DNA from: an uncultured Candidatus Nitrosopumilus sp.
GTDB taxonomy: Archaea; Thermoproteota; Nitrososphaeria; Nitrososphaerales; Nitrosopumilaceae
Direction: 5' to 3'
Assembly: GCA_951812655.1 (NCBI GenBank)
Contig: OX638319.1
Span: forward strand, 1,403,620-1,467,619
Length of the DNA: 64,000 nt
The number at the start of each line of letters is the position of its first letter. Position 1 is the first letter of the stretch. Below the pieces are notes generated by a model. It searched no databases. It was given only the letters and a program-made list of their open reading frames with translations, and was not told the origin of the DNA. Of the stretch, positions 11,153 to 41,323 are shown piece by piece. Both the position numbers and the translations under genes were made by a program.

Positions 11153-11431
11153 CTAGCCCATTCTTTTTATTATGTGATATCCAAACTCAGTCTTTATTGG
11201 TTCAGAAATTTCTCCAACTTGCAGCTTGAATGCAGCCTCCTCAAAAGGTTTAACCATCATGCCTTTTGTAAAATAGCCCAAGTTTCCATCTTTTTTTCCA
11301 CTACCCTTATCAGTTGAAAACTCTTTTGCCAGACTCCCAAATTTTTCACCATTTTTGATCTTCTCCAAAATAGAGAGGGATTCACTTTGTTTTTCAACTA
11401 GAATATGGGAACATTTTATTTTGTTGCTCAT
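11153..11431 (-). CDS. Parvulin-type peptidyl-prolyl cis-trans isomerase
   Basis: A 92-residue stand-alone PpiC/parvulin domain. It begins [12 protein letters not shown], has the [20 protein letters not shown] core and ends with [11 protein letters not shown], which includes the active-site His. No signal peptide or anchor is present, so it is cytosolic, as in other thaumarchaeal parvulins. The length equals a minimal parvulin. Confidence 0.93.
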
Positions 11432-11597: not shown

Positions 11598-11652
11598 AGC
11601 ACAATGTTATTGGGGATATAGTTAAGGAAATTATTTCTGGACCCACGTGGAA
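11598..11652 (+). repeat. Half copy (A) of the 96-bp inverted-repeat element
   Basis: This is the right half of the element seen complete at 33144 and 53921. It has the loop sequence in the opposite orientation (AGCACAATGTTATT), then GGGGATATAGTT, then exactly 29 bases to the end of ACCCACGTGGAA. The left half cannot be recognised. The rest of the gap 11432-11811 is AT-rich with no gene visible. Confidence 0.8.
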
Positions 11653-11811
11653 ATAAACAATATTCTAAAATGTTCACAAAAAAACTTGTATTGTCACATA
11701 TATCGTAATTGCCAGTATTTTATTGACAACTCTTTTTAGATTTTAATTTAGGTATGAGACAATAACCAGATCAACAGTTCTTTTAAGCAAGCACATACTT
11801 GAATTTTTAGA

Positions 11812-12561
11812 TTGTATCATTTGTATTTAGATGAAAGTGGGGTGGAAGGACTTTCATCCAATCCAGATAAAAGAAATTTGGATGATGACTGGTTTACTTC
11901 TGGCGGAATCATAGTAAACGAGAAAGAAATCGGGGGATTTGAAACATCACATTCAGAAATAATATCTGAATTCTTTACAAAAAGAGGCGTTACATTACCA
12001 GAAGGTTTCAAGTTACATTATAGGGAAGCAAGGCAGAGACAATGGCCATATGATCATTTGTCTGAGAAAGAGATTGGGGAATTATCAAATTCAGTGTTTA
12101 ACGCAGTTAAGAAGATTAATTGTAAATTAGTATCTGCATCAATCAATAAAAGAAATCATTGTAGTAAACCGTATCCTTATACAGCGAGTGTAAGGGCATA
12201 TTCATTGCTATTATGTTTAGAAAGATTCCAATATTTTTTAGAGGAAAATGGTGAAGACGGTATTAGTATCTATGAAAAACTCACACGCAGTATGAGAAAA
12301 AACATTGAAAAAGATTTGAGAAATTTACGTGAATTGACAAGATTTCCGTTTTTTTCGGATCTCGATAAAATAAAAGGTAAGATCAGAAGTGGTGATCCCG
12401 TAAAAGAAAAAGTGTTACAGTTTGCTGATTATGTTGTCTACCCACCTCATATTTTCTTCTATACAAATCAAAAATGTTCAAACAGACTCAATGAGATTCA
12501 CTACAAATATTATAATGCAAAGGGAAATTGGAAAACTGGCGGTTGTGTGTATATACCATAA
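11812..12561 (+). CDS. DUF3800 family protein
   Basis: A 249-residue protein starting at TTG. It opens with YHLYLDESGVEG, the first acidic strand of the DUF3800 RNase-H-like fold, and has a late LQFADYVVYP segment matching the family's C-terminal conserved Asp. DUF3800 proteins are common cargo of prophages, plasmids and defence islands; a nuclease role is suspected but not proven. It lies between the half 96-bp element and a transposase tail, so it is probably mobile-element cargo. Confidence 0.75.
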   Translation: MYHLYLDESGVEGLSSNPDKRNLDDDWFTSGGIIVNEKEIGGFETSHSEIISEFFTKRGVTLPEGFKLHYREARQRQWPYDHLSEKEIGELSNSVFNAVKKINCKLVSASINKRNHCSKPYPYTASVRAYSLLLCLERFQYFLEENGEDGISIYEKLTRSMRKNIEKDLRNLRELTRFPFFSDLDKIKGKIRSGDPVKEKVLQFADYVVYPPHIFFYTNQKCSNRLNEIHYKYYNAKGNWKTGGCVYIP

Positions 12562-12687: not shown

Positions 12688-12864
12688 TCACTTTCTGCTT
12701 GCGTTCTGAATCAGGAATTTCCATTTGTTCCCTCCTTGAACGTCAACCCCACAAGCTTTGGAAGGTATCTTGTTGTGTAATCCCATGTGTGATCTGACGT
12801 AATTATGATAAATCTGGTATCTGTCAATGATTATAATATCTTCTTTTTTGATTATTCTTGAGAA
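12688..12864 (-). pseudogene. C-terminal remnant of a DDE transposase
   Basis: Reading the minus strand in frame gives about 59 residues ending at TGA (12688-12690). They contain RYQIYHNYVRSHMGLHNKIP and SKACGVDVQGGNKWKF. The HNYVRSHMGL...P...CG pattern is the last conserved block (with the third acidic helix lost upstream) of IS6/IS240-like DDE transposases. No start codon or catalytic core is present and a stop lies just upstream. It abuts the 3' flank of the solo casposase, so an IS has been deleted here. Confidence 0.7.
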
Positions 12865-12937
12865 ATGCTAACATGTAAGATCTTAACAGGCTTGTAATTA
12901 TTTCATTAAAAAGATATTCAAAAATTGAATAATTTTA

Positions 12938-14125
12938 TTAAATTTTTAAAAGGATTTTTTCATAGATTTTAGGGATTTTACCTTCAGACAAATTCTTCCG
13001 GATGTGCCACAATGTGGATTTGTTAATTCCAAATCTTTTCCTTTCTTCTGGAGTCATATTCAAAATCTTTTCTCTTAATTCCAGATTATACTTTCTGTTT
13101 ACTTTCATTTTAGGCATGACAAATTCAAATTCTTCCTTTTTCCCTACAATGAAATTAGATAACTGTTGTAGGTTATCTTGAAGAATAAATTGATATGAGT
13201 ATTGTTTACCATTCTTGTAACTATATTTAGCATTAAAGTTCGAATTAATCTTTTCAATTAATAATTTAGCAACATCTTCTCCTAACCTAGTATGATAGTT
13301 CTCCGTAATTATAAAATCAGATTTTTTAATCTTCTTTTCTTCCAATAATTGAATCACAGATACATCAATTAGCCATCTAAATAATTCTTGAACGTCGTAA
13401 ACTAACGGTGTTCTGCTCTGATTAATCTCATGCAAAAACCCGATAGAATAATCAAGACCTATTCCATTAATTCCTTTTCTAATCTCAGATTCCAATATGG
13501 CATAACCATAATTCAGCAATGCGTTAATCTCATCAGATGCATTATAATTTCTCGAATTTGATTTGTTCTTTCTTCCTGTAAACTGAAACTCTGGATTTAA
13601 TTGATTAAATATTGCAGTTAGATTCTCAAGATAAATTCCTGATATTCTTCCCTCATATGTCATCAGTTGCTTGATTAATTTTGAAATATCTTGTTTCTCA
13701 CTATTCTTCATTGTATCCAACAGAAACAAATCTTCCTTTTCTACTGCCTTTCTAATTTTGACAATATCTACAGATTCATAGAATCTTGATAATTCCTCCA
13801 ATAGATTCAGAGAATGCTCAACCTTTGCCTGTACTGTCTTCAGGGCAATCTCAAATCTAGATACAGAATCAAGGTACTTTTGGTACTGTTTTATGCGTAA
13901 TTTGCCTGATTTTGGCTGTTCAGGCATCACATTTGCCAATAATTGACCATTCCAATTCAATAATGTAACATTGATGCTGTGCTTTGAGAGCCACCTCATT
14001 GCCTCAAATGTAATGTTGCCAGTATGACCGTCAATGGTTATTCCGTCATGGTTTATCTTGTGAGGGAAAAATTCTAGTCTCATATTTTTTAATTTGTTTG
14101 TGATGATCAGTTTTCTCTTGTCCAC
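12938..14125 (-). CDS. cas1: Casposase-type Cas1 (solo copy)
   Basis: A 395-residue Cas1-fold integrase. The three catalytic positions are visible: E158 (MTYEGRIS), H232 (GFLHEIN) and D244 (LVYDVQELFR), within the Cas1 signature NALLNYGYAI. A C-terminal helix-turn-helix extension (MTPEERKRFGINKSTLWHIR), typical of casposases, ends the protein. No cas2 or CRISPR array is nearby, which argues for a transposon integrase rather than CRISPR adaptation. It starts at GTG (14123-14125), because an in-frame TAA lies upstream with no ATG. Its near-twin is at 58827. Homology between the two copies extends about 35 bp past the stop codon. Confidence 0.93.
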   Translation of the reverse strand: MDKRKLIITNKLKNMRLEFFPHKINHDGITIDGHTGNITFEAMRWLSKHSINVTLLNWNGQLLANVMPEQPKSGKLRIKQYQKYLDSVSRFEIALKTVQAKVEHSLNLLEELSRFYESVDIVKIRKAVEKEDLFLLDTMKNSEKQDISKLIKQLMTYEGRISGIYLENLTAIFNQLNPEFQFTGRKNKSNSRNYNASDEINALLNYGYAILESEIRKGINGIGLDYSIGFLHEINQSRTPLVYDVQELFRWLIDVSVIQLLEEKKIKKSDFIITENYHTRLGEDVAKLLIEKINSNFNAKYSYKNGKQYSYQFILQDNLQQLSNFIVGKKEEFEFVMPKMKVNRKYNLELREKILNMTPEERKRFGINKSTLWHIRKNLSEGKIPKIYEKILLKI

Positions 14126-14165
14126 GTTGATTGATGTTCCAAAACCTGTAATGGGTAACGGATTC
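14046..14165 (-). pseudogene. C-terminal tail of the casposon HTH gene, out of frame over cas1
   Basis: In the other reading frame over the 5' end of cas1, 40 codons run open to TGA (14046-14048) and match the C-terminus of the 300-residue regulator at 59938 (for example THYRFWNINQRGQEK versus THHRFWNVNQCGQEK). The match stops abruptly at 14165, leaving about 87% of that gene missing. This shows that the solo casposase came from a casposon with the same overlapping gene pair. Confidence 0.75.
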
Positions 14166-14217
14166 GATTATTTGGTATCTGGTTTGCCAATGTTATGCTT
14201 TACTATCAATTCAAAAT

Positions 14218-15561
14218 TTACTGACATGATGCGGGTTCACCCTGTATTGTCCCAAACTTTTCAAGGTCTTGTGAAATCATACGATACTGAATAGATTCAC
14301 GATCCCATAAACCAGATATTGAGACGGCATATCCGCCAGGAATTTTAAAAACATCTATGATGCGTTCTTCAAGAAAATAGGTTCCTCCAAATTGTGCAAT
14401 GGTACTTTGAGTGGATTGTTTGACATGTGCAGAGTCTAACTTGTTTTCAGTAATAATGTTCCAGTTTGTATCGCAATACATGTCATTTTCACTTGTTACA
14501 TCAGGAACATTAACTGGACTTCGTTTTTCTGCAATATCACGGATCAGGTTTCCATCTGAATCAAATTGAGATTGATCATGTGGGAAGCACCAATCAGGAT
14601 TATGCAAGTGCTCTAACAAGGACTCCATGTCATGAACAGATGAAGAGACAGGACCTCCGCATTGCATTATGTGAGGCGCTAGTTTTCCGTCATAATCCAA
14701 GTTAATTATCAGATTCTTGGTTCGAGTGGGGTTGGAACGATTAGGATCTTGTTCTATAAATCCCGATTTGGCATAGGTTATCGTATACCATTCTTTGTCT
14801 ATGCTGATTTCTGCATCAGGGTACAGAGATAAGAAATATTGAACAGAATCCATCTTTTTGGTTCCTTCGATGAATGTCTCAGCATTATGCACATTGACTT
14901 CTGTCTTCATCCATCCACGCTCAATTAGCCGTGGTTTTGTCTCCTCTCGGACGCATGCAGGTGTACCATCATACTTTAGAATTAATATTAGATCGTTTCT
15001 GCATGGAATGTCTTTGGGTTCGACTCCCTCCCTTGAAAACTTTAACGGGGGCTCAAGGAAATTAACGGGTACAGCATCATTACCAAAGTCTTTTCCTACA
15101 TGGAGTGAAAAGCCAGTTCCCATAAAATCGGAAATCTTTCCTTCCTCTTTCCACACTCCAACTAGATTTACGTTATACTTGCTTGATGGTGCTCTTTCTG
15201 AGACTTGTACAGTTACGTTAAGAGTTTGGTTTTGTCCGTTCAGAATCATTTGGTTTGGTTCAAGATGGATGTTTGCTCCCGGCGGAAATCGAATCTTCCC
15301 CATCTGATCATTGCCAATTGTTGCATGAAAGTCCACAGTTGTTCCAATAGCGTGTTTTGAGGTTATCACTATGGGAAAGGTTGCAGTCTCCCCTTTGTCA
15401 ACTTTAAAGTTTGGCTTGATCCCATCAACATAAAACCAAAGATCATCATACATTATTTCATCTGCCAGTCTAAAGTGAAATGGTGAAAAGTCTCTTGCAT
15501 CCACATATGAAACTACTGATACAAACAACAATGCAAAAACAGTAAACAATATGATTTTCAT
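14218..15561 (-). CDS. Secreted protein with thaumarchaeal Cys module
   Basis: A 447-residue protein with a signal peptide (KIILFTVFALLFVSVVSYV, cleaved near residue 22). A beta-rich N-terminal domain (residues about 50-160, NEAT/Ig-like spacing) is followed by the shared module at about 185-220 (IPCRNDLILILKYDGTPACV ... KLIERGW-like). The C-terminal part has further Cys and a repeat of basic/acidic strands. No C-terminal anchor is seen, so it is probably released or held by partners. It is the last of three minus-strand secreted genes (4-bp gap to the next). Function unknown. Confidence 0.75.
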   Translation of the reverse strand: MKIILFTVFALLFVSVVSYVDARDFSPFHFRLADEIMYDDLWFYVDGIKPNFKVDKGETATFPIVITSKHAIGTTVDFHATIGNDQMGKIRFPPGANIHLEPNQMILNGQNQTLNVTVQVSERAPSSKYNVNLVGVWKEEGKISDFMGTGFSLHVGKDFGNDAVPVNFLEPPLKFSREGVEPKDIPCRNDLILILKYDGTPACVREETKPRLIERGWMKTEVNVHNAETFIEGTKKMDSVQYFLSLYPDAEISIDKEWYTITYAKSGFIEQDPNRSNPTRTKNLIINLDYDGKLAPHIMQCGGPVSSSVHDMESLLEHLHNPDWCFPHDQSQFDSDGNLIRDIAEKRSPVNVPDVTSENDMYCDTNWNIITENKLDSAHVKQSTQSTIAQFGGTYFLEERIIDVFKIPGGYAVSISGLWDRESIQYRMISQDLEKFGTIQGEPASCQ

Positions 15562-15564
15562 TTT

Positions 15565-16293
15565 CTAATCCTGATTCCCACTCTCATAAATTGCGCAAAG
15601 CTCTGGCCTGTCAATGCTGATGTGAAAATCCACCATCTTGGCATAATCATCAGACAGAACGCCGCTAAATTCACGACCAAAGCTTGTCTTGCCGCAAAAC
15701 TCTGTGTATTTTTCACCAAAATCAAAGTTGTATTTTCCAACCACTAATTCAAACTCTGATGGAACGTTTGCAATATTTGTCTCAAATTCCTTCCTTACTA
15801 TCTCTGCTATTTTTTTCTCTTCGTTTTCATCAAAGTATGACAGTTCAGGTCCAAATCTTACAGATATTTCCTGTTCAAGACTGCAAATACAGGAATTCAT
15901 GTTGGGTATGCAAGGCATAGGATTCTCTTCTGTGATTTGGTTCTTGCCAAGTCTGTTATCTTTGTAGACACTCTGGTACCAGTAATCATTGGTTCCTTCT
16001 TCTGTAATGACATGCCCACAATAGTCGGTAATTGGAGGATATGACTCCAACGACATGCCTTGCATAAACACAAGATTGTCGGGATTGTACAGAATGTTTT
16101 TTTCATCTAGTTTTGCCTTAAATTCATTTAAGGATGCATCATAGCCTATTTTTTCATAATCAACCAAACCATGTTCTGTGTACGGCAAGCCAATGCCAAG
16201 AAAGTTTTCGGTTCCGTAAAACAAAGATGAGCCAGATATCAACAATACAAGTCCGGAAACAACTGCAACCATTATCAAAATTCTATTCTTCAA
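15565..16293 (-). CDS. Membrane-anchored extracytoplasmic protein, paralogue of the 16303 gene
   Basis: A 242-residue protein with an N-terminal hydrophobic segment (KNRILIMVAVVSGLVLLISG) acting as signal or anchor. The rest is extracytoplasmic with about seven Cys. The block GKYNFDF...FCG...FSGVLSDDY...LCAI parallels GKINFDY...FCG...FSGISDRY...LCAI in the next gene upstream, so the two are paralogues. The start follows the upstream stop by 9 bp. Function unknown. Confidence 0.7.
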   Translation of the reverse strand: MKNRILIMVAVVSGLVLLISGSSLFYGTENFLGIGLPYTEHGLVDYEKIGYDASLNEFKAKLDEKNILYNPDNLVFMQGMSLESYPPITDYCGHVITEEGTNDYWYQSVYKDNRLGKNQITEENPMPCIPNMNSCICSLEQEISVRFGPELSYFDENEEKKIAEIVRKEFETNIANVPSEFELVVGKYNFDFGEKYTEFCGKTSFGREFSGVLSDDYAKMVDFHISIDRPELCAIYESGNQD

Positions 16294-16302
16294 TTTATCA
16301 TC

Positions 16303-17583
16303 CTAGTAGTCACGCCACGTCCAGTCGGAATTTTCTTCATCAAAATCATAATTCTCAATATCCAGCCTAACCTCGATATTTGTAGAGTTTGCAGGTACTT
16401 TGAATATGGAATCGGTGTAATATTGTGGGTATGGTGCTTCTGGACTTTTCACGTACGGGAATTGGATGTATCGGGATTCCTTGCCATCAACCAAAACAGA
16501 AAGTCCCAACAGTTTACCGACATTCCAGTCCTCTGATCCATAACTTTGATAATAGCTAACTCCAGTATCGCGCAACCTAATCTTCATGTAGCTGTCTTTG
16601 TCAGAAGGGATGAATTCCAATACGGTGATGCTGTTTTTTGGCTGATAGTCAACATGCTCAAGTGTGAGGTGAGACGCATAACCTAGAATCGAATGGTTAA
16701 TCGAGTTGACATAAAAATAATTTCTCTCCATGAGTCTCTCGACTGATGCAGATTTCACATGTACGGTTTCCATCCTGCTGTTTTTCCAAGTCTGCAACGA
16801 TTCATCCCGATTGGGATTCTCTTTGAATTTTATGTCATAGAGTGTAGCATCATCACCAATTGCGCATAAAGAAGACATGCTTTGATTCAATCCAAAAGAC
16901 AGGTTGCCATACCTGTCTGAAATTCCTGAAAAATACTTTGACCCCGCCATTCGTCCGTCAAACTCTCCACAAAACGACAAGACATGCTCGTCTTTGTAGT
17001 CAAAATTGATCTTTCCTATCGTGAACTGATATTCGTTCAGGTTCTCATTGCCTCTCAGGTGATGCTTTACCAAGGCAGCTGCACGCAATTCCTCATCAGG
17101 CGTAAAGTATGATTTTTCTTCTAGGAATATTTCTGCCACCCGGATTTCCAAAGGAGAGAAGCAGTCCGTGTAGTTTGATTTATGATCATCGTCTCTTGGG
17201 ATTTCGGCATATGAATTAGCATATTCTATATGGGTGCTGTTGATTGCAGTCTCTAGCCAGTAAACTTGCTTGTCTCCCTGATCAATGACATAGCCGCAAT
17301 TGTAACTCCTTGGCTGATACGTTAAAATGTGAAATCCGCGATTAAGCACGATATCTTGACTATCCACATCGGCCCCAAAGTCACGTAGCATCTTCTCAAA
17401 AATGTCTGGCATTATTTTCGCTATGAGCAAGTCGTAGTCGATGTTTCCACCATGGGTGAATTCTATATTGTGATTTTCAGTATATGGTACATAGTCTCTG
17501 CCAGATGGTGAATAGTCATCTGATTGTGCATGTGCCAACCCAAAGAATCCCGCAAAAATTAAGAAAATGAGAAAATGTTTCAT
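16303..17583 (-). CDS. Secreted protein, extended paralogue of the 15565 gene
   Basis: A 426-residue protein with a clear signal peptide (KHFLIFLIFAGFFGLAHAQ). The first ~240 residues match the neighbouring paralogue. The C-terminal ~180 residues are a second beta-rich domain with no Cys, ending in an acidic aromatic tail (NSDWTWRDY). It is first in the minus-strand trio and starts at the edge of the repeat-rich intergenic region, so its promoter probably lies within or beside those repeats. Confidence 0.7.
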   Translation of the reverse strand: MKHFLIFLIFAGFFGLAHAQSDDYSPSGRDYVPYTENHNIEFTHGGNIDYDLLIAKIMPDIFEKMLRDFGADVDSQDIVLNRGFHILTYQPRSYNCGYVIDQGDKQVYWLETAINSTHIEYANSYAEIPRDDDHKSNYTDCFSPLEIRVAEIFLEEKSYFTPDEELRAAALVKHHLRGNENLNEYQFTIGKINFDYKDEHVLSFCGEFDGRMAGSKYFSGISDRYGNLSFGLNQSMSSLCAIGDDATLYDIKFKENPNRDESLQTWKNSRMETVHVKSASVERLMERNYFYVNSINHSILGYASHLTLEHVDYQPKNSITVLEFIPSDKDSYMKIRLRDTGVSYYQSYGSEDWNVGKLLGLSVLVDGKESRYIQFPYVKSPEAPYPQYYTDSIFKVPANSTNIEVRLDIENYDFDEENSDWTWRDY

Positions 17584-17639
17584 TGTTTGATTAAGTGAAT
17601 TATCAGAAGTTCATAAAGAATTCCATCCTTGGTACTGTT

Positions 17640-18140
17640 TTTGTTGATTTTTGACATCTTCCAGTTATCTTTTCGGTATCAATTCGGTATTTGATTTATC
17701 AATTCGGTAGCAACCTAGTTTTGGAACTTATCGATTAGGTATCTTTTCGACACACAAAATTATCAATTCGGAGAATCAAATTATCAATTCGGAGAGAAAT
17801 TTTATCAGTTTGGTATCAATTCGGTGGAATAATTTATTTTTCCGGTAACAGATTCTATCTTTCCGGTGTAACTTTCTATTTTTTTGGGGAAATATTCCGA
17901 AACGCCGGATTGATAATTATCTTTTCGGGGGGAAAATAATTTTTCAGAAATGATATTGTATATTTCTGGATTGACAATTCCGAAACTCTCGAGAGTTTGT
18001 TGATATTTTCCGAAACTTTTGATCGCAAATCTATATTTTCAATTATCAATTCGGGGATTTTGTCGAAACTTTGTCGATATTTTCCGAGAGATTGTCGAAA
18101 CTACCGGAAAGATACCGAAAAAATAATTGATCGCAATGAA
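17640..18140. repeat. Degenerate iteron-like repeat region between divergent genes
   Basis: The 773-bp gap 17584-18356 has no convincing gene. It holds at least six copies of TATCAATTCGG (starting at 17677, 17697, 17761, 17782, 17814 and 18044), variants such as TTATCTTTTCGG, one inverted copy CCGGATTGATAA (17905), and a second cluster of CCGAAAC/GTCGAAAC motifs from 17980 to 18120. Spacing is irregular. It separates the minus-strand secreted trio from the plus-strand array. It could be a multi-site operator, a replication or partition site, or decayed repeats. Confidence 0.75.
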
Positions 18141-18356
18141 TGATTTTTGAATAAATTTCAACAAATTTTACGGGAAACAAGTCAAGTAACTCACCAAACA
18201 CTCTAGATTTTATTTTGGACATGTCCAAAAATGTCCAGTTTTGTCCAAGGGTGTCCAATATTCTAAAAAATATTAATCAGGTACAGGTAATGCACAGACA
18301 ATCTGAGGGCGGAACATCAGGAGCACTTATGAGCATTCAGCCCAGAATTTTGTCGT

Positions 18357-19799
18357 ATGAAGTATGTTGTGATGCTGTTAATCCTGACAGGGTTTGTTGG
18401 AATGGCACATGCCTCACAGGACGAGGCAACACATTCCACCAGGATGTCTTTTGAGGAGCATTATGAAATTGAGATCCTGGGACTTGAAGATGAATACTCT
18501 ACAGATGAAGAATATTCTTTTGACTTTGTAATCTCAGGCTACGGGTATGGATGCGCAAACTATCAGGTGAGCTATCCTGATGGCAACGGCCTTCTCATTG
18601 GCACGGGCGCTCAATCACGATGTGCTGCTCAAACATCAATGTATGAATTTGAAATCAAATCCTTTGACAGGCATGGGACTCTTGGAAATGTCGCAATAAA
18701 AAAACCAGGGGCCTATGCTGTCACAGTAACGTTTGAAAAACCAAGCAAGTACTTTCCTACAACAGTCAACAAGGAGTTTCTTGTTGTAGACTCCCTTGAT
18801 AATAATTTCAATGAATTGACCCCGTTAAAGCAATTCAAATCGGGAGTTTTGATTGATGGAATCCAATGCAGAGAAAACTTGATCCTGATTCCAAAACATG
18901 ACAGTTCCCCGGCATGTGTGAAACCTGAAACCATTTCAAAACTCATTGAGCGAGGATGGACGACACAATCACTCGTACAGGATATTGTCATGAATACCAT
19001 GAGCAAAAAACTCGGTCCAGAATGTTCACAAAACACAATGGATGAGATAATGAGTGGAAAAATGGTTGACGAGAAATGTGCCAGATTCATCGACGAACTT
19101 TTCACTAAACGCCAGTCCGAGATGATGCGGCAAGGATATGTCTTTGATCAGGAAAGCAAGTCCTGGACCAAGGAAGGCCATCCGGACATGTTTATGAATA
19201 TCGCAGACTATTACCAGCAAAATCTAAAGAACTTGGAACCTAAACCCCTCTCTGAGATTAATCGAAGCTGTATGACATTAGAGCAAAGCAAGGAAACAGC
19301 TCCTTTTTTCAAAGTACCGTCTCATTTACCTGATGGCTATTCTATGAAATGCTCCATGTCTGGAACGCCTTCAGAATCTTACATCATTTATCACAACAAG
19401 GATGTTTCTGATGGATGGCTGGGAAAACTGCATGAACTGATTGATGGTGGTGCAATTTTCATTCATCAGGTAGATGAAAGAAATATTGTAGACAAAGAAA
19501 AGTATGCCACATTTGGTTCACCAGAGCAACGAATGCAGGATACGTATGATGATGTGATGATACAGAATCCATCATTGCAGCCACAGTTGATACGAATTAA
19601 TGAAATACTGGCATACGCAGTTGACTCTTGTACTGACTGCGGCATGCAGACTGCAGACTTTGCAGATGGAACCCTTATTCAAAAATCAACTTCGACTGAA
19701 ACTAAAATCAAATTCATTGATGAAGATGGTGTTACATACATGCTCAAAACAACTTTGCCGTTAGACGAGTTAATCTTGGTGGCAGAATCATTTCAATGA
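18357..19799 (+). CDS. Secreted protein with thaumarchaeal Cys module
   Basis: A 480-residue protein with signal peptide KYVVMLLILTGFVGMAHA. It has an N-terminal Ig-like beta domain to about 150, the shared module at about 155-205 (PLKQFKSGV, IQCRENLILI, PACV, KLIERGW), a helical middle with SHOCT-like spacing and Cys, and a C-terminal domain (residues about 300-480) with one CTDCGM pair. No C-terminal anchor. It is the first gene of the long plus-strand array. Confidence 0.75.
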   Translation: MKYVVMLLILTGFVGMAHASQDEATHSTRMSFEEHYEIEILGLEDEYSTDEEYSFDFVISGYGYGCANYQVSYPDGNGLLIGTGAQSRCAAQTSMYEFEIKSFDRHGTLGNVAIKKPGAYAVTVTFEKPSKYFPTTVNKEFLVVDSLDNNFNELTPLKQFKSGVLIDGIQCRENLILIPKHDSSPACVKPETISKLIERGWTTQSLVQDIVMNTMSKKLGPECSQNTMDEIMSGKMVDEKCARFIDELFTKRQSEMMRQGYVFDQESKSWTKEGHPDMFMNIADYYQQNLKNLEPKPLSEINRSCMTLEQSKETAPFFKVPSHLPDGYSMKCSMSGTPSESYIIYHNKDVSDGWLGKLHELIDGGAIFIHQVDERNIVDKEKYATFGSPEQRMQDTYDDVMIQNPSLQPQLIRINEILAYAVDSCTDCGMQTADFADGTLIQKSTSTETKIKFIDEDGVTYMLKTTLPLDELILVAESFQ

Positions 19800-19817
19800 T
19801 TGCATGAGAAATAGAAA

Positions 19818-20471
19818 ATGAAGACTAGGCTTTTGATAATTATCGTGTTTTTTGTTATTTTTGCAGGATATGCAAAACTAGAGGTTTACGGGCATGGAAC
19901 GGGACCTAAATTCAGCACAGGATTCTACAGGATTGAAGATGAGGCATTTTCAAAAACAACAGTGTCTGTAGGGGAATCCTTCTTCATAAATGGTACTCTT
20001 GTATCTTTGGTAGAAAAAAACATCCAGGGAAAAATGGATGTTAGATTCGATTATGCAAGTAACGAGTCATGGTTTGTTAATCTTTTAAAATCTAATTTTC
20101 TCTGTCTTGCTCAAGATATGTGTGCCAAACCAATCTATGTGGTACCAAACCAAAATCACTGGTACATGGATATCACGTCCAAACCAGACACATATGTGTT
20201 GGAAGGAAACAACATTTTCTCGTATTCAATAAAAATGACTTCTTTAAAGGGCGGAACATATCATATCCACACAGATCCCAATGCAGACATCTCGTCTTTT
20301 AGGCATATTGGTCCAGGCCAGACAATAATCGTAGAAGGTTCACAAGACATTACCGAGGGGGAATTGTTTGAATTTTACATTCCTTATGCGATAGGTTTTG
20401 TTTTAATGATAATCGGTTTAGTGTTGGGGGTTGTTTTCATGTACAGGAGAAAACAGAGAAAAATAAAATGA
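19818..20471 (+). CDS. AmoB-like copper-domain membrane protein
   Basis: A 217-residue protein: signal peptide ending near residue 25, a cupredoxin-like domain, then one C-terminal helix (about 188-208) and a basic tail. The mature N-terminus would begin HGTGP, followed by RIEDEAFSKTTVSVGESFF and INGTLVSLVE. Later it has GGTYHIHT and IGPGQTIIVEG. These blocks, in this order, are those I associate with archaeal ammonia monooxygenase subunit B. Candidate copper ligands are H26 plus H149 and H151 (HxH). It also has a Cys pair (C96, C102) and an insertion not expected in AmoB. The neighbours are secreted proteins, not amoA or amoC, so it is probably a diverged paralogue. It overlaps the next start by 4 bp. 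Confidence 0.6.
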   Translation: MKTRLLIIIVFFVIFAGYAKLEVYGHGTGPKFSTGFYRIEDEAFSKTTVSVGESFFINGTLVSLVEKNIQGKMDVRFDYASNESWFVNLLKSNFLCLAQDMCAKPIYVVPNQNHWYMDITSKPDTYVLEGNNIFSYSIKMTSLKGGTYHIHTDPNADISSFRHIGPGQTIIVEGSQDITEGELFEFYIPYAIGFVLMIIGLVLGVVFMYRRKQRKIK

Positions 20472-21832
20472 AAATTAAATTTTTGATAATCCTTGCATCT
20501 GTCGGTTTGTTTATTTCAATTCCAAATACATTTGCATCTGAACCTCAACTCATTCAAATTTTTCAACCCGATATTGAATTGCTGCCTGATGAGACGATCG
20601 AATATGGGGAGTCTTTCACAATACGTGCATGGTTGCAATCCTATGATGACAGACCTGAAGGTTTGGGATTTTTTGTAGATGTCTTGGATCCTCACCACAA
20701 TCAAGTTGACTCTACTTTATGGTTTGCAAGACAGGACTTTGTTTATGAATTTGACACCATGCATCCTGCTTACAATGTCACTCAAAGCGGCAACTATCTT
20801 GTTAAACTTGAAAGAGCAGACTTTATGGAGCGTACTGGAAGTTTTCCAAAGACAATCTCATTTGAAATTCTTTTTCCTGAACCCGAACAGGATAGGCCTT
20901 TAGGAAAAAATTGCGGGCCTGGAACATTACTGGAAGAGGGAATATGCGTAGTGGCTAAAGATGATAAAAAAGCAGAATCTTCTTCAAGATGGGGTACGTA
21001 TCAGGACATCACATCGCCTCTAAAACAAATCAAATCAGGCGTTGCTCTAGTTGATGTGCAATGCAGTGAAGGAAAATCTCCTGCTTACAAATACAATAGA
21101 ATGAGTGTCGCATGTGTTTCAGAAGAAACTTTGGTGGAATTGTGGGATAGAGGATGGGCGACAATGAGATTTTACACAGATGATGATACCTCATCGCATG
21201 CATTGTGTAATAATTACGAGGGAAAATGGCATCCCGAGCACAACGGATGCAGAGGGGATATTTCTGATTTACAGTGCTCTCTGATGGGAGGAAAATTTGT
21301 TGACAATCTCAAGATATGCTATAACGACATATGCCCTAAAAACAAGACATACACATTATGTGTTACAAATTCAAATTACCCCGAGCCTGAACCTCCATCC
21401 ACATCAACACAATGCAAACCTGGCCTTCCACCATTTCATTCGGATTTTTATTTAGACCAAGAACTTTGCAAATGGAAACTAATTCCAGAACCCATTCCAA
21501 ATGAAGTTATCCCATATGTCTGGAATAGTCATTTGCAAAAAAAGCAAATTGACTTTTCACCTAAAGACAGATCTTACTTTAATTTTGGCGAAGGGTTTGA
21601 TCCTGAAAATGAAAACAGAGCCTGTTCTCCAATAATTTTAACGAATAAAACTGAACTTTACATTTCATCAACATTTACCATTGAGCCTTTTGAAATAATC
21701 AATACAGTAACTAGTGAGATACAGCATGACGATTGCCATAAAATTTGGAAGGCCGAGACATTGCTTGTAGAGCCCAGTCCGGAACTGGGTGCATGGTTGA
21801 AAAATTATTGGGAAAAAGAAAATGAAGACTAG
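20468..21832 (+). CDS. Secreted multi-Cys protein with shared module
   Basis: A 454-residue protein with signal peptide (KIKFLIILASVGLFISIPNT). A beta domain (30-140) is followed by CGPGTLLEEGICV and the shared module (SPLKQIKSGV, VQCSEG, VACVSEETLVELWDRGW), then a Cys-rich linker with Pro/Glu (PEPEPPSTS) and a final domain. The module here has drifted (LWDRGW instead of LIERGW). The start overlaps the stop of the AmoB-like gene and its own stop overlaps the next start, so translation is probably coupled. Confidence 0.72.
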   Translation: MKIKFLIILASVGLFISIPNTFASEPQLIQIFQPDIELLPDETIEYGESFTIRAWLQSYDDRPEGLGFFVDVLDPHHNQVDSTLWFARQDFVYEFDTMHPAYNVTQSGNYLVKLERADFMERTGSFPKTISFEILFPEPEQDRPLGKNCGPGTLLEEGICVVAKDDKKAESSSRWGTYQDITSPLKQIKSGVALVDVQCSEGKSPAYKYNRMSVACVSEETLVELWDRGWATMRFYTDDDTSSHALCNNYEGKWHPEHNGCRGDISDLQCSLMGGKFVDNLKICYNDICPKNKTYTLCVTNSNYPEPEPPSTSTQCKPGLPPFHSDFYLDQELCKWKLIPEPIPNEVIPYVWNSHLQKKQIDFSPKDRSYFNFGEGFDPENENRACSPIILTNKTELYISSTFTIEPFEIINTVTSEIQHDDCHKIWKAETLLVEPSPELGAWLKNYWEKENED

Positions 21833-22262
21833 ATACAAAATCATACTCATTACAGTTTGTGGATATTTTGGAGTATTTTTTGGCCCTGTAACTGCAAGCA
21901 ATGTCTACTGTGATTTTATTTCACAAGAAACGTGCACATCAAGAATCACCGGAGTTGTCTTGCCACCGCTCAATCTGATAATGCCAAGCTTGCCAAGTGA
22001 TGATTGCATTGTAGACAATGATGGGGTGATGGAGCCTTGCTATGATGAAGCAGGCCTTTTGGAATGGCCGTTTCCCCCTCGCATGGAAGAACATCCAGAA
22101 AGAAGTTGTGATGAGCAATGTACTGATGTTGGAAAACCTCCTCTTTGTACCGGTGATAGAACCGCATGTTCTAATCAAGATGCCAATCTGTGTGATCCTT
22201 CAGGATGGGAATGTGGAGACAATGAAAGGATATTTGAGGAGATTAGGGGAGATGAAGGCTAG
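21822..22262 (+). CDS. Small secreted Cys-rich protein
   Basis: A 146-residue protein with a hydrophobic N-terminus (KTRYKIILITVCGYFGVFFG). The mature part has about 12 Cys (CDEQCTDVG, CTGDRTACS), suggesting a disulfide-bonded knot. It overlaps both neighbours by 11 bp. It shares the MKTR start cassette of the array. Function unknown. Confidence 0.62.
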   Translation: MKTRYKIILITVCGYFGVFFGPVTASNVYCDFISQETCTSRITGVVLPPLNLIMPSLPSDDCIVDNDGVMEPCYDEAGLLEWPFPPRMEEHPERSCDEQCTDVGKPPLCTGDRTACSNQDANLCDPSGWECGDNERIFEEIRGDEG

Positions 22263-22719
22263 GCTTTTGATAATATTTACAATCTCGATTACAATTGTGG
22301 CACTTTTTACAGTGAATTCTTTTATGAATTTGTACCATTACGGAGAATATCTCAAGATGGATGATGGCCATGTATGGCACTGCAGCTCTGATGGTCACAA
22401 ACAGTTTTGCGACAACACATCAATTAGGATGATGGAACTGTTTGGGCTTCTGCCTGACAGTGAGGAGCCCCCTTACCAACTTGAGAAAATAGAAGGCTAT
22501 GCGATTGACTATGGTAGAGAAGTAAAACATCTGCCATTTGCCGATGTTTGCACTGATCCGATGAAGATAATTTTACTGTCGTATTCCAACATATCTTCAA
22601 CGGATGAGGAATTCACAATTGAGGATGTGAAATTACCTTTTGGAATGAACTTAGAAGATTTTGAAAGATGCGCATTTGAAACATCATTTACAAAAGAAAG
22701 ATCCAACATGGTTCCTTGA
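22252..22719 (+). CDS. Membrane-anchored extracytoplasmic protein
   Basis: A 155-residue protein. The ATG at 22252 gives the array-typical start MKARLLIIFT and an N-terminal hydrophobic helix; a longer reading from 22042 would run through the preceding gene in another frame and lacks a signal. The mature part has four Cys (HCSSDGHKQFC, DVC, RC). It is the last gene of its sub-block: about 145 bp follow before the next gene. Confidence 0.62.
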   Translation: MKARLLIIFTISITIVALFTVNSFMNLYHYGEYLKMDDGHVWHCSSDGHKQFCDNTSIRMMELFGLLPDSEEPPYQLEKIEGYAIDYGREVKHLPFADVCTDPMKIILLSYSNISSTDEEFTIEDVKLPFGMNLEDFERCAFETSFTKERSNMVP

Positions 22720-22864
22720 GCGGGATTTGTAAAATGAGTTCAAATCCATAACTATGAAAAAATCAGTGTGTTTTTTCAACCCTATCCAGGGGATGTCCTA
22801 GATTCTCTTTATCGATAAAAAGTAGAATACTTTATGAACTATCTATAATTCATTTATTCAGATT

Positions 22865-24724
22865 ATGAAATTTTTTGTAATTTTATTGATTTTTCTAGGC
22901 TCTGCCATGCTTGCACCCAATGCATTTGGCTCTGAATTATTTTATGGAACATCAAGTATTGAAAGATTCCCGCAAGTTATAGATTCTGATGAACCACAAA
23001 TAATTGAAATCAAATTCCAATATCAAGAGGGGCCTTATTCACTTAACATTGAACCCCTCTTTGTTGTTAGTCCCAAAGAGGCAGTTCCATTTGTACAAAT
23101 TGAATTTGATGAAGTAGAAGGCATACCTCGCATGTCAGTTAAAAGAATGATTGGCACTATTACAGTAGATCAAGACATCACAAGTGAGAAAATATTTCTA
23201 AACATTTCTTATAATGGAACATATGCAGTAGCTCCTCCACAACCATTCAAAAGTTCATGGAGTGATACTATGATAATTGATATTGAAAAAAATCTTGTTC
23301 CTGAACCTGATGACAATCTTAATTTAGAAAAAGAGCCCTTTTGCGGGGAAGGAACTACATACACTGAAGGCATATGCGTTGTCGATGAAATAGACGATTC
23401 TACAGAAACATCTGAAAAATGGGGAAAATATTCATCTACAGTGTTTGAATCTCCACTAAAGCAATTCAGATCAGAAACTACATTTAATGAAACTCAATGC
23501 AGGGACTCTTTGATTCTCGTAATGAGACACAATGGCTCTCCCGCATGTGTTAATTTTGATACAATTCCAAAACTGATTCAAAGAGGATGGATAGACACAG
23601 ATCCAAGGGCAGAAGCAGACAAGAATATTCCAAAATATTTGTGTGAACTGTATGGAGGCGGATTCTTTGATGAAACTGGTGAATGCATGGATGTGGAAAG
23701 TTCTTACAAATGTCAAATGTCGGGTGGAGAATGGGACGGCAAGTGCATGATCCCAAACTATATGGGAAAAGGAATTGGAACAGAGGCGGACTTTGATCCT
23801 AATTTTAAACCTGATTGCATTGACGGCAAGTGCATGTGTCCTGATGGTTTTTCATACAACCAAGTCTTGTTCAAGTGTGTAATCTCATGTGAAGAGGATT
23901 TAGTGTATAATGGATATACTGATTCGTGCACTACAGAGTTTGAATTAAAGTATCATGGATTTTGCAATGATAGTTTCACATATTCTCCATCATCCCATGA
24001 ATGTTATTCTGATAATGATACATCACAAATCCCCCTAAAAGATCCCCCAAGAACTCCTCCTCCAGAACCAGAACCTACATACACCCTTACTGAAGTTAAC
24101 TGCTTTACAAATCAAGTAATCTACAATGATGAATGCATTTACGTGCTAAACCCAACTGATGAATTTCCAAAAAAAATGACCAAATATTTCTCGATGGTTG
24201 ATGATGTAATCGTTAATTTTTGTGAAATAAAACCTGTAACTGAATATGATGGAGAGGACAATAGTGGCGTTACTTTAGACAGATGTTTTGAGATTTCTCA
24301 TTATACAATATCTGATGTCAATGCTATAAAATTTCAAAGTACGACTCCTCCAACTTGGATAAATATACAAATGGAAAACTTGACAAGATATGTAGAACTT
24401 GGTTCTTCACCAACATTTAGAATAATAGAATCTGGATGGGGAAATGGTTGTACTTCTCCTACCTTAGAAGTATATCACATGAAACAAGAATTTGATACTG
24501 ATCCTCCCGTTGATGATCTTATCTATAAACATAGGATTGTGTATTCTTGTCCATATTATGAGCCGATATACCCACCTCAAGATGTTCTAAGAATTTGGGA
24601 CGAGTCTGATTTTCCAAATTTTCCAATTTGTGAAGAAGAAGGAAAATATTTGATAATTGGGGATTCGGGATATGAACGATTAGCATTGTATTATTATTAT
24701 TGTGGAATAGAAAATGAGAACTAG
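22865..24724 (+). CDS. Large secreted multi-Cys protein with shared module
   Basis: A 619-residue protein with signal peptide (KFFVILLIFLGSAMLAPNAF). It has a beta domain (25-150), then CGEGTTYTEGICV, the shared module (SPLKQFRSET, TQCRDSLILV, PACV, KLIQRGW), a run of EGF-like Cys spacings (CMSGG..., CIDGKCMCPDGFSYN), a Pro linker (RTPPPEPEPTY), and a C-terminal Cys domain. It starts a new transcription block after a 145-bp gap with AT-rich promoter-like sequence. Confidence 0.72.
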   Translation: MKFFVILLIFLGSAMLAPNAFGSELFYGTSSIERFPQVIDSDEPQIIEIKFQYQEGPYSLNIEPLFVVSPKEAVPFVQIEFDEVEGIPRMSVKRMIGTITVDQDITSEKIFLNISYNGTYAVAPPQPFKSSWSDTMIIDIEKNLVPEPDDNLNLEKEPFCGEGTTYTEGICVVDEIDDSTETSEKWGKYSSTVFESPLKQFRSETTFNETQCRDSLILVMRHNGSPACVNFDTIPKLIQRGWIDTDPRAEADKNIPKYLCELYGGGFFDETGECMDVESSYKCQMSGGEWDGKCMIPNYMGKGIGTEADFDPNFKPDCIDGKCMCPDGFSYNQVLFKCVISCEEDLVYNGYTDSCTTEFELKYHGFCNDSFTYSPSSHECYSDNDTSQIPLKDPPRTPPPEPEPTYTLTEVNCFTNQVIYNDECIYVLNPTDEFPKKMTKYFSMVDDVIVNFCEIKPVTEYDGEDNSGVTLDRCFEISHYTISDVNAIKFQSTTPPTWINIQMENLTRYVELGSSPTFRIIESGWGNGCTSPTLEVYHMKQEFDTDPPVDDLIYKHRIVYSCPYYEPIYPPQDVLRIWDESDFPNFPICEEEGKYLIIGDSGYERLALYYYYCGIENEN

Positions 24725-26159
24725 ATTATTGATAATTCCTGCATTGATGACATTACTATTTAGTTCTGTTGCATTTACACCACAACAATCTGATGCATTG
24801 TCTTGTGGAGTTGGACCTTTTGTTGAATCATTTGAAAGACATGATTTATTGTTGCATGGAATTTTAATTGAAAAACATATCGATAGAACTGAAGTTGGAA
24901 ATTCAAGAGATACCCCTTTGAGTACGCTGGTATTTGAGACGATATCGGTCTACAAAGGGGAACATCAAGACCAATTTACAATAAATGCAAATCTTTCTTG
25001 GGATGACTGGTATGTTGTAGGTGCAGAATACGTCCTCTTTGCAGAAAAATATGGCGATAGTTATCTGCGAGAATTGTGTGTGGGCCAATACATTGCATTT
25101 CCACAAATAATTCAATTCCTGGATAGTTATCCTTTGAATGTAACATCGGGAATTGGAATTCATTCCTTGTATGACTTAGTAACTGGTGATGATAAAATCA
25201 GACTTGATAATTTAATGAGTTTGTACAATGACATGAATCGAGGAAATACGGGACTAATCATGATGAAAAATATGAAAGACAAAAACAATTACAGTTGTGA
25301 TTTTCAAACAGATGTAAAACAAGCAGAAAAATATCTAATAAACGATAATCATCTTGCATCAAATATTTTAGAAGATTCTCCAGAGTACACTGTTTCTTCA
25401 GAGTACACTTTGGATACAAATCCGCCGACTGCAATCATTACATTTGAGGGGGATACACTAAAGGCAGAAGTATCTGTGTTAAACGGCAAAGAATTTGGAA
25501 ACTGTTTTTACGTTTACAATTCTAAGTTGATAAACAAAATCACAGGTGAAACAGAAAGAAATCATGATCTACTCCAAAGATTATGTAACGGTGAAAATGC
25601 TTACGAGTTAATCCCTGATCTATGTCCGATTAAAAGAACGTCTACTCTTCCAATAAATTCAGATCATGGGGGCGGTTATGTTAATCCTGAATGTCAGAAA
25701 GGACATGAACTGGCAAATGGAATCTGTCAGTCTGTAAATTATAATCATGGTGGTGGTGGTGGTGGTAGTGGCACTGTTAACCTGAATTCTGAGTTATCGC
25801 CATCATATGCTTTGGATTTTATGGGTACTTCATTTTATCGTGTAATTTTACCGCTTGCAGCTTTGTTTGCAGGTGTTGCAGCAGCATTTCTTGCCACATA
25901 TTTTATTCTAAAAAGAAAAAAAATCCCATCAAGACCTTACATGGCTCTGATGTTGGCAGGAGTATTGATGTTTTTTGGAATCCCTAATCTTACCTCGTCT
26001 TTGGAATCAATTTCAGTTATTTTGTCTCAACCTGAGCAAGCCATGAGATGGGTTTTTAATTTTCAGTTTATTCCACGATTAATATCAATCAGTATAGTAT
26101 CAGTTGCAGCTGTTTTACTGTACAGATCCTCAGTGATTAGGAAATTGATAAGGAAGTGA
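24714..26159 (+). CDS. TIMP/NTR-like domain protein with C-terminal helices
   Basis: A 481-residue protein: signal peptide, then an NTR/TIMP-like domain beginning LSCGVGPFVESFERHDLLLHG with the later VFETISVYKG and YVLFAEKY strands. A middle domain follows, then a Gly-rich linker (NHGGGGGGSG), and three C-terminal transmembrane helices (about 385-410, 420-440, 450-470). Archaeal NTR domains are of unknown function. The start overlaps the previous gene by 11 bp and the stop overlaps the next start by 4 bp. Confidence 0.7.
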   Translation: MRTRLLIIPALMTLLFSSVAFTPQQSDALSCGVGPFVESFERHDLLLHGILIEKHIDRTEVGNSRDTPLSTLVFETISVYKGEHQDQFTINANLSWDDWYVVGAEYVLFAEKYGDSYLRELCVGQYIAFPQIIQFLDSYPLNVTSGIGIHSLYDLVTGDDKIRLDNLMSLYNDMNRGNTGLIMMKNMKDKNNYSCDFQTDVKQAEKYLINDNHLASNILEDSPEYTVSSEYTLDTNPPTAIITFEGDTLKAEVSVLNGKEFGNCFYVYNSKLINKITGETERNHDLLQRLCNGENAYELIPDLCPIKRTSTLPINSDHGGGYVNPECQKGHELANGICQSVNYNHGGGGGGSGTVNLNSELSPSYALDFMGTSFYRVILPLAALFAGVAAAFLATYFILKRKKIPSRPYMALMLAGVLMFFGIPNLTSSLESISVILSQPEQAMRWVFNFQFIPRLISISIVSVAAVLLYRSSVIRKLIRK

Positions 26160-26632
26160 AGACTAGACTTTGGATGCTTGTTGGAATATTTTTTCTCCCT
26201 TTGATTATTCCACAGAGTTTTGCCATGTGTGCCATAAACGAGGATTGGCCTGATGCACCATGTCTTGATACAATCTCTAATGATTGTAAAGACGCAGAAG
26301 GCGTTGGAAAATGGGGCGAATATTATTACCTGAAAGGCGATAGTTTGATGGAGACAAAAAAATCTGAAATGCTAAATGCATTTGATGCTGGCACATTGGA
26401 AGATTGGATATCAAAATCCCACGAGAACTCTAACGTGTGGAGATATTATCACCTCAAAGGAGAAATCCCCGATGAACGAGGTGAGTATTATGATGTTGAC
26501 AAATGTATCCCCGCATTTCACATACCTGGAAATCCTATTTGGTCAATCCAATATTCATCCTGGTTAATTCTTGCATTGTTGGCGAGTATTTCCTCGATGA
26601 TCGTTGTTGTATTTTGGAGAAAAAGAAAATGA
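26156..26632 (+). CDS. Secreted, C-terminally anchored small protein
   Basis: A 158-residue protein starting at GTG (KTRLWMLVGIFF follows), with a signal peptide and a C-terminal helix followed by WRKRK. Two similar segments, VGKWGEYYYLKGD and VWRYYHLKGEIPD, suggest an internal duplication. The stop overlaps the start of the next gene (ATGA). The WRKRK ending is shared with the gene ending at 28060. Confidence 0.6.
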   Translation: MKTRLWMLVGIFFLPLIIPQSFAMCAINEDWPDAPCLDTISNDCKDAEGVGKWGEYYYLKGDSLMETKKSEMLNAFDAGTLEDWISKSHENSNVWRYYHLKGEIPDERGEYYDVDKCIPAFHIPGNPIWSIQYSSWLILALLASISSMIVVVFWRKRK

Positions 26633-27078
26633 GGAATAGAAACAAAATAATTGTAATAATTGCAGTAATTTCTTTTATCGGCATATTCCTACTTGAAATT
26701 TCAGACAGTCATCTCAATCGTATAATCCACGACATGGATAAATCCAATTCTATTAAAAATTATGAAATGCTAGAAACTGCTTGCAACGGTATCCATGGGA
26801 AACTAGATGGGGAATGCTTCATTAATGCATTTGATGAATGCAAATCTGCAAAAATAAAACAGATGAGCTCCACATTTGAGGGGGATCCGATATTTTATTA
26901 TGCCCACATCATACTGTCGGAACCTTGCACCATTCATTTTGCCATTGACACTTCACAAGATACATGGGGAGGAATAACCAAAGGATTCCATCAAAAAACA
27001 TGTACTGATGCACAACTTGACAAACATGCAATAAACCTCCAATGTGATGATGGACAACAGATGATCCCATTACGGTAG
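26629..27078 (+). CDS. Membrane-anchored extracytoplasmic protein
   Basis: A 149-residue protein. The ATG at 26629 sits in the conserved junction (GGAGAAAAAGAAAATGA) and gives MRNRNKIIVIIAVISFIGIF as N-terminal anchor. The mature part has six Cys. The upstream in-frame extension to 26503 lies inside the preceding gene and is rejected. Function unknown. Confidence 0.6.
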   Translation: MRNRNKIIVIIAVISFIGIFLLEISDSHLNRIIHDMDKSNSIKNYEMLETACNGIHGKLDGECFINAFDECKSAKIKQMSSTFEGDPIFYYAHIILSEPCTIHFAIDTSQDTWGGITKGFHQKTCTDAQLDKHAINLQCDDGQQMIPLR

Positions 27079-27090
27079 GCAAAAAAGAAA

Positions 27091-27510
27091 ATGAAGAGTA
27101 GAAACAAAATAATTTTGATTGCAGTAATATTCATAGTTGGAATATTTGTAATAAACTCAGTCATTCCTGGAATTTTATTTAGGCAACAAGACAATCTTGG
27201 TTTGATTTTGTATACGTGCACACTTGGCATAGATCGCATGGGTCCTTTAATGCTGATTACCTACAACAATGGAACCCATACAATTGATGAGAATTCATGT
27301 GCATGGAGAAACAATACGACATCCAAATCTTCTACTGGCGAATATCAGGAAATTAATAAAATGTCCTGTCCTGAACTTATAGAAAGACATACTTCTGGAG
27401 AGCCATATGCAAACAAAGAAAATAGAATATTTGCACAAGAGAAAATCTCAAACTGTAACTTTGTGGATAATTGGTCTGAAGCACAGAGAAAGGTTGAAGA
27501 TTGGAGATGA
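27091..27510 (+). CDS. Membrane-anchored extracytoplasmic protein
   Basis: A 139-residue protein with N-terminal anchor MKSRNKIILIAVIFIVGIFV, close to that of the preceding gene although the mature domains differ. Four Cys; one block (NCNFVDNWSEA) resembles CADIVDNWSYL in the gene at 28623. It lies 12 bp downstream of the previous stop with GAAAATGAAGAG at the start. Confidence 0.6.
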   Translation: MKSRNKIILIAVIFIVGIFVINSVIPGILFRQQDNLGLILYTCTLGIDRMGPLMLITYNNGTHTIDENSCAWRNNTTSKSSTGEYQEINKMSCPELIERHTSGEPYANKENRIFAQEKISNCNFVDNWSEAQRKVEDWR

Positions 27511-27514
27511 GAAA

Positions 27515-28060
27515 ATGAAAATAGGAATTTTGATTTTATTGTTGATTATTCTTACAATTTTCCAAGTTCATGATTCCTTTGCCTGCTCCTGCTCGTCACA
27601 CCCTGACTTTCTGATGGCTTGGATGGAATCTGATGGGGCATTTCAGGGCACGGTCAAAGGTATTCTGACTGACGAGGGTCCGCGAAAAGTCATTTTTGAC
27701 ATACATCATGTACAAAAAGGCAATTATCCATATGGCAATTACACACTGGGGGATTCAAGTATAATCCACCACGGTAAAGACATGATACGAGTGAGCAGCT
27801 GCAGTGTTGACTACAAAATAGGAGAAACATATCAGGTATTTGCGTACGGTGGAAGTCAAATGACGGGTGAGACGGGTATTTGCAGCACAAAGCAGATTTC
27901 AGGTTTTGAGGAATATTCTCATGAGGATGGCAATGGTCAAATTCAACAACACAGAGAAGATTACAACTTTCTTGCCCAATACAGCCTCTTCTCATTAATC
28001 ATGCCTGTAGCTATTGCAGCAATAGTTGCGGGAATTGTAATTTGGAGAAAAAGAAAATGA
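27515..28060 (+). CDS. TIMP/NTR-like single-domain protein with C-terminal anchor
   Basis: A 181-residue protein: signal peptide, then FACSCSSHPDFLMAWMESDG, FQGTVKGI, VIFDIHHVQKG, SSCSVDYKIGETYQVFAYGG and GICSTKQI. This is the TIMP/NTR pattern (N-terminal CxC, two further Cys, GExY strand). A C-terminal helix with WRKRK anchors it. It is the clearest NTR protein of the array. The ATG at 27515 is chosen over an upstream reading because it starts the signal peptide. Confidence 0.72.
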   Translation: MKIGILILLLIILTIFQVHDSFACSCSSHPDFLMAWMESDGAFQGTVKGILTDEGPRKVIFDIHHVQKGNYPYGNYTLGDSSIIHHGKDMIRVSSCSVDYKIGETYQVFAYGGSQMTGETGICSTKQISGFEEYSHEDGNGQIQQHREDYNFLAQYSLFSLIMPVAIAAIVAGIVIWRKRK

Positions 28061-29774: not shown

Positions 29775-29775
29775 A

Positions 29776-30141
29776 ATGAAAACAAGACTTTTGATAATTT
29801 CAATTGCAGTAATTGTGGCAATGATAGTTACAATCATGTCGGCATCATATTTGACATATGAACCGTACAATCCTTTAGAGAAAATTGCATGTGAGAATAA
29901 GGGTGGAATATATGATCTGGATCATGGGACAGGTGGAAGGGACGATATCAGGACATGGTATTGCCAGATGCCTGTTAGTGACGAAGGAAAGGAATGCACT
30001 GATTCATCTCAGTGTATCGAGATATGTATTGCAGAAAATGAAATGGATGCAACAGGCATGTGTACAGGATACTATAATGCTGGATGCTATTTCTGGGAAA
30101 TGCGTAATGACAAGGCACATGAGGGTTGCATACTCAACTAG
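29776..30141 (+). CDS. Membrane-anchored Cys-rich protein
   Basis: A 121-residue protein with the array start MKTRLLIISIAVIVAMIVTI as N-terminal anchor. The mature part has eight Cys, including CTDSSQCIEICI and GMCTGYYNAGC, so it is disulfide-rich. One base separates it from the preceding stop codon. Function unknown. Confidence 0.6.
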   Translation: MKTRLLIISIAVIVAMIVTIMSASYLTYEPYNPLEKIACENKGGIYDLDHGTGGRDDIRTWYCQMPVSDEGKECTDSSQCIEICIAENEMDATGMCTGYYNAGCYFWEMRNDKAHEGCILN

Positions 30142-30150
30142 GATTGTAAA

Positions 30151-33239: not shown

Positions 33240-33291
33240 CAAAGAATCATGTCAAAATAGAAAAAATCGGGAAAAATATTAGATATTACTA

Positions 33292-41257: not shown

Positions 41258-41323
41258 AATTAATGATAAGGGGGTTTCCACTCAATTTTGAACCATTTTA
41301 GTTAGTGCAAAATCTTTGCCACT

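Follow-up and report, generated by a model that had tools for sequence, protein, structure and literature searches.

A solo casposase gene without partner genes or start codon in a Nitrosopumilus genome, probably a decaying half of a casposon

A solo cas1 gene that encodes a casposase, has no partner genes beside it and has lost its start codon was found in a stretch of 64,000 nucleotides (the window), which belongs to the complete 1.67 Mb genome of an ammonia-oxidizing archaeon (G000; C1:1403620-1467619). The gene is probably the cas1-side half of a family 1 casposon whose replicative half has been replaced, and is now decaying. CRISPR adaptation is thought to derive from casposases; what is missing on this path is a casposase that lives on once its transposon is gone. 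The partnerless casposases of a single genus allow this step to be examined, in how often they originate, whether they decay and whether any stay intact. The window copy speaks for decay; worth testing are the undamaged ones at 1481084 in the same genome and at 1730866 in genome G036.

Identity of the solo gene and absence of its partners

The open reading frame lies on the minus strand at 12938-14125 and comprises 395 codons from its first usable start, GTG15. It matches Pfam family PF01867 (2e-54), and its nearest solved structure is the M. mazei casposase (PDB 6opm, 2e-65), far ahead of the best CRISPR Cas1 (1.8e-26). Casposases belong to the Cas1 family and have catalytic E, H and E/D residues, and alignment to 6opm revealed that the E, H and E residues of the solo protein are intact. 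We assign it to the family 1 type of casposases. The nearest relatives that carry the gene are Nitrosopumilus assemblies, and none was found in the viral contigs searched. Repeat and tandem-repeat scans of the window yielded no CRISPR-like array. An AlphaFold model of the solo protein, built from 16 sequences, had a mean pLDDT of 64, too poor for a fold search. Elsewhere, the same genome holds a third full-length cas1 at 1481084 and a cas1 fragment at 1519662.

A casposon at 58.8-64.6 kb of the window served for comparison. Its cas1 (58827-60059, minus strand) is 83% identical in DNA to the solo gene over 12892-14165; it begins with ATG and overlaps an HTH gene (59938-60840, minus strand), which is without a counterpart at the solo locus. 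Family 1 casposons link cas1 to a polB of the protein-primed kind and carry three to four small conserved genes beside polB. No polB was detected within 27 kb of the solo gene, the nearest and only other polB of the stretch being a truncated one at 41366-43615, and homologues of o60877, o61077 and the HNH gene are absent from the locus. The whole replicative half (wHTH, HNH, polB and neighbors) is missing. The sequence-only reading had described a solo casposase with intact catalytic residues and no partner genes, which holds for the residues and for the absence of polB or any other adjacent partner, but it missed the loss of the start codon.

Neither terminal inverted repeats (TIR) nor target site duplications (TSD) were found around the solo gene, nor for the polB-bearing elements of its close clade; this comparison is a weak one, as the window casposon itself shows none apart from its flanking palindromes. 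Candidate TIRs around that casposon were rejected, being mimicked by two palindromes, and nothing convincing was seen around the solo gene, around the solo gene taken together with the distant polB, or in relatives. Likewise, we discarded the possibility that the truncated polB at 41.4 kb belongs to the same element as the solo cas1 at 12.9 kb, the two halves having been stretched apart by 27 kb, since no matching ends beyond the palindromes were present. Element ends were therefore deduced from gene content.

Regarding this stand-alone polymerase gene, it lacks about 190 N-terminal residues and starts at the right edge of a palindrome copy. The gene that follows polB (43884-44005 in the window; L033:3527-3988) contains 21-bp in-frame repeats, CCGGAWTGATAR..., which resemble the reverse complement of the iteron core described below. 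Beyond the polB end, a small heat-shock protein (Hsp20) gene is found at 44802-45368 and at L045:2638-3126, with its 3′ end towards the element, and is possibly an insertion target.

Loss of the start codon

Comparison of the flanks of 18 copies revealed that most close relatives start with TTG, where the solo gene has TCG (14165-14167, minus strand), and that an in-frame TAA stands directly upstream, so that the nearest start is GTG15. The region reads ATAATTGAACCC in the solo copy of G036 at locus L042 and ATAATCGAATCC in the window. Judging from the family alignment, a protein initiated at GTG15 would be without the first beta strand of its N-terminal domain. The full-length protein is probably no longer made, and the window copy is probably past use.

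Identity to the window casposon drops sharply at 14165, from 17/20 to 6/20 matching bases per bin, and this position is that of the cas1 start codon. An abrupt end there, with similarity reaching some 35 bp past the cas1 stop, had been noted from the sequence; the drop is genuine relative to the window casposon, but similarity continues for about 40-46 bp beyond the stop and, relative to L042, extends upstream to 14213 (84% over 12932-14213), a few bases short of the upstream gene. This upstream flank (14168-14213, minus strand) is common only to L042 and is not casposon-like, while the short 3′ flank (12892-12937, minus strand) is common to the window casposon, L036 and L045.

The stretch at 14052-14165 (minus strand) had been taken for the amputated tail of an HTH regulator gene, inside which similarity would end. 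It is the 5′ end of cas1 in the +2 frame and not a gene remnant. Both overlapping frames had been said to stay open for 40 codons, and the HTH frame is indeed open for 39, in the solo gene, in the window casposon and equally in the third copy of the genome (C3_own), which has no HTH gene. The apparent match corresponds to the stretch where the casposon HTH gene overlaps cas1, and since it is also found in copies without any HTH gene, it represents cas1 read out of frame. An ATG start with HTH overlap was seen in the cas1 of the window casposon and in that of L043; the other close-clade copies, with or without polB, use a TTG start behind an intergenic flank, without HTH overlap.

The class of partnerless copies

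Six full-length cas1 genes were found with no adjacent polB or with a polB fragment only, two each in the window's own genome, G036 and G068. Most of the related assemblies are fragmented, so that a missing polB may sit on another contig, the own genome and G036 excepted; the latter genome is complete and carries two full-length solo cas1 genes, but no polB was detected in it. Disabling lesions affect three of the six partnerless copies, drawn from three genomes, and none of the ten polB-linked copies (Fisher p 0.036, in a small test whose lesions were defined after the sequences had been seen). These are the lost start of the window copy, the replacement of a catalytic E by K in G036 (aligned to 6opm) and an internal TAA in G068. 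The remaining three look intact, one in each of the same genomes. Beyond these, the three genomes hold many truncated or stop-bearing cas1 fragments, and cas1 of this kind occurs in 28 of 95 genomes, a count that includes fragments and distant homologues.

The six copies do not form one clade (AU p 0.043). The window copy (SOLO_win) pairs with the other solo of G036 (85/85), with which it shares the upstream flank, and the third copy of the own genome pairs with a G068 solo, the support being moderate. Given this pairing and the shared flank, the solo state may be old.

A polB fragment adjoins or follows some cas1 fragments, with both on one strand (G000:C1:1519662-1520332, corresponding to L035:9621-10333, with similar cases in G074:C38 and G073:C146). 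In intact casposons cas1 and polB lie on opposite strands, and the same-strand fragments represent a recurrent rearrangement.

Genomic setting of the solo gene

On the left, gene order is the same in relatives up to a parvulin gene (11153-11431), and synteny stops beyond. The edge is marked, 166 bp past the parvulin, by half of a palindromic repeat (11598-11657), which folds no better than shuffled sequence. Between this half-palindrome and cas1 lie a DUF3800 gene (11812-12561, plus strand; PF12686, 1.8e-8) and, beside cas1, a possible remnant of the C-terminus of an insertion-sequence transposase (12688-12867, minus strand), a resemblance seen by eye and without Pfam match. In G036 the same parvulin is found about 12 kb from a solo cas1, in the same orientation, and in G072 about 3 kb from a polB fragment. 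The parvulin side is a recurrent site for casposon material. A search of the own genome for the ancestral right-hand neighbor of the parvulin, meant to gauge the length of the insertion, gave no match.

Downstream of cas1, most loci have a palindromic repeat, and at several of them defence-like genes stand in between: SIR2, AbiV, KAP/QatA, a methyltransferase with a GHKL ATPase, and here DUF3800. Solo loci and polB-bearing loci alike have such genes on the side of cas1. The complete repeat, of about 100 bp, consists of outer CACGTGGGT arms, an inner TATATCCCC stem and a 12-nt loop. Full copies are present in the window at 33154-33243, 41305-41394 and 53916-54020, and in the rest of the genome at G000:C1:1478053 and 1497924; two of the three window copies tested fold as double-stem hairpins (z about -6.5). 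The five cores of the own genome are all within 1.436-1.498 Mb, and G068 has 12.

On the other side, all six partnerless cas1 genes close a co-directional run of mostly secreted-protein genes, with a gap of 50-97 bp before cas1. The gene directly before cas1 has a hydrophobic N-terminus in five cases, and in the sixth (G068C89) the gene one further has one; the background is 13% of host-region genes. In the polB-linked copies of the close clade, this position is taken by a gene without hydrophobic N-terminus, an HTH-type regulator where recognizable by eye. In the window, the run comprises three minus-strand genes for secreted proteins: the first at 16303-17583; a second at 15565-16293, 83% identical in DNA to a gene upstream of the G036 solo cas1 at the same locus; and a WING-49 protein gene (14218-15561; NCBIfam NF058652, 3.7e-15), which ends 50 bp from cas1. 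In relatives, the run at solo loci includes a serpin (protease inhibitor) gene (L038:3479-4726, by Pfam match; homologues in L036, L042 and L035). Beyond the run, a long row of genes at 18357-30624, all read in one direction, encodes membrane-anchored or secreted proteins; several of them begin with one MKTRLLII-like signal, and their starts have a DNA motif in common that overlaps the stop of the gene before.

A repeat-rich intergenic region (17609-18141) precedes the run and contains TATCAATTCGG iterons, most of which lie at multiples of about 10.5 bp from each other. These repeats are present 3.5-5.8 kb upstream of cas1 in all six cases, and three casposons carry them at the polB end in the same orientation; iterons at this end were seen in casposons of relatives. 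Clusters of the iteron core are found in genomes with such a cas1; other genomes have almost none of it, G030 and G072 excepted. Iterons as a tag specific to cas1 units were rejected, because clusters also occur at loci without cas1, mostly beside secreted-protein genes. The promoter-like 5′ flank of cas1 is conserved between four solos and four casposons, although the preceding genes differ.

This layout could be read as that of a casposon that lacks polB and is still mobile, its casposase moving secreted-protein cargo between the cas1 end and the iteron end, while the host or a full casposon would provide replication. The constancy of the arrangement in six of six cases, the iteron orientation and the conserved 5′ flank are consistent with such a unit, as is the lateral spread indicated by the dS values below. 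Against it, no TIR or TSD was detected, the iterons that also occur without cas1 may be promoters or targets rather than element ends, three of the six solos are disabled, and no near-identical pair of units was seen. We regard a still-mobile unit as unlikely.

Alternatively, homologous recombination within a repeat-rich island could have put the solo cas1 at the 3′ end of a secreted-gene operon, the layout then being a matter of hitch-hiking. Palindromic and iteron repeats abound in the island, as do casposon fragments and secreted-gene arrays, and its flank types are mosaic, the 5′ flank being shared with one copy and the 3′ flank with another. The tight arrangement of all six loci, in gap, direction and iteron distance, is nevertheless more regular than random recombination predicts, which makes this origin quite improbable.

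The explanation that we favor places the cas1-side half of a family 1 casposon in a hypervariable island that would begin just past the parvulin. The replicative half would be gone, secreted-protein genes now filling the space between cas1 and the iteron-rich region, and partnerless casposases would arise and vanish repeatedly in sediment Nitrosopumilus.

Divergence and selection

Pairwise dS between the solo gene and every other copy of its clade ranged from 0.79 to 1.30, in a range where dS is a rough measure and approaches saturation above 1. With 0.89 relative to the window casposon, the gene is no closer to it than to copies in other species and is not a recent copy of it; the recent stranding proposed by the sequence-only reading is refuted in this sense. 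That it is a stranded casposase was supported: it belongs to the casposase family, has no partners in cis and has lost its start codon, and partnerless copies show an excess of lesions.

For the branches of a codon tree, dN and dS were obtained by a fit to pairwise distances. The solo branch showed a dN/dS of 0.10 (bootstrap 0.07-0.16), at the upper end of the other close-clade copies (0.04-0.10), and six unique changes at otherwise conserved sites, with no excess over the 0-10 of the other copies. The low ratio and the lack of excess changes indicate purifying selection through nearly all of the visible history. Frameshifts or a neutral dN/dS had been named as signs of simple decay, and the outcome is mixed: the ratio is low and not neutral, yet disabling lesions are present. 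The absence of relaxation on this branch speaks against decay; under the favored explanation, the intact frame and low dN/dS would stem from a long past as an active element gene, followed by a recent loss. We infer that the solo gene once had its replicative half here, that it lies untranslated and that the loss is recent.

Purifying selection of this strength would also suit a domesticated integrase, that is, a casposase kept by the cell without its transposon for cellular DNA integration, which had been offered as the other possibility. The full-length solos of the complete G036 genome without detectable polB, and the solo cas1 at the same chromosomal position and in the same orientation in both genomes, point the same way. 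Domestication predicts an intact, expressible gene, vertical descent and a single clade, with the element ends lost. The start codon is missing, the G036 copy at the same locus has its catalytic E replaced by K, the solos are not one clade, and only 28 genomes carry such a cas1. Finally, cas1 dS between the own genome and G036 (0.92) is below that of neighboring host genes (1.2-2.2), which indicates lateral rather than vertical spread. Domestication is thus not supported, and we consider it very unlikely.

By analogy with the insertion of spacers by Cas1 next to a CRISPR leader, partnerless casposases could be the integrases of a cassette system that inserts or shuffles secreted-protein genes beside leader-like iteron regions, in which case the class would be a live one (the own copy at 1481084, and copies in G036 and G068) and the window copy a dead member of it; this, too, we hold to be very improbable.

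Comparison with known systems

Among the papers searched, none was found on polB-less casposases of such layout. The family 1 casposons described in Nitrosopumilus (NitAR1-C1, NitNF5-C1/C2; PMC4046053, PMC6563490) have the same kind of Cas1 and belong to the same genus, and sister copies of the solo gene, in its own and related genomes, adjoin HNH and a large polymerase gene, with a methyltransferase or other defence-like cargo. In contrast, the solo gene has no polB, no HNH, no TIR or TSD that could be found, and no start codon.

The M. mazei casposase (6opm; PMC6977970) is the best structural relative by sequence, with the E/H/E residues aligned and the C-terminal region aligning up to about residue 383 of 395, but this enzyme is of family 2 and comes from a complete casposon.

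Finally, the Cas1-solo group 1 of Methanomicrobiales was reported to lack both horizontal transfer and a complete set of active-site residues (PMC4046053). Like its members, the genes studied here appear to lie outside CRISPR and complete casposons, and one of them, in G036, also lacks a catalytic residue; unlike them, the solos described here have spread laterally, and most retain these residues.
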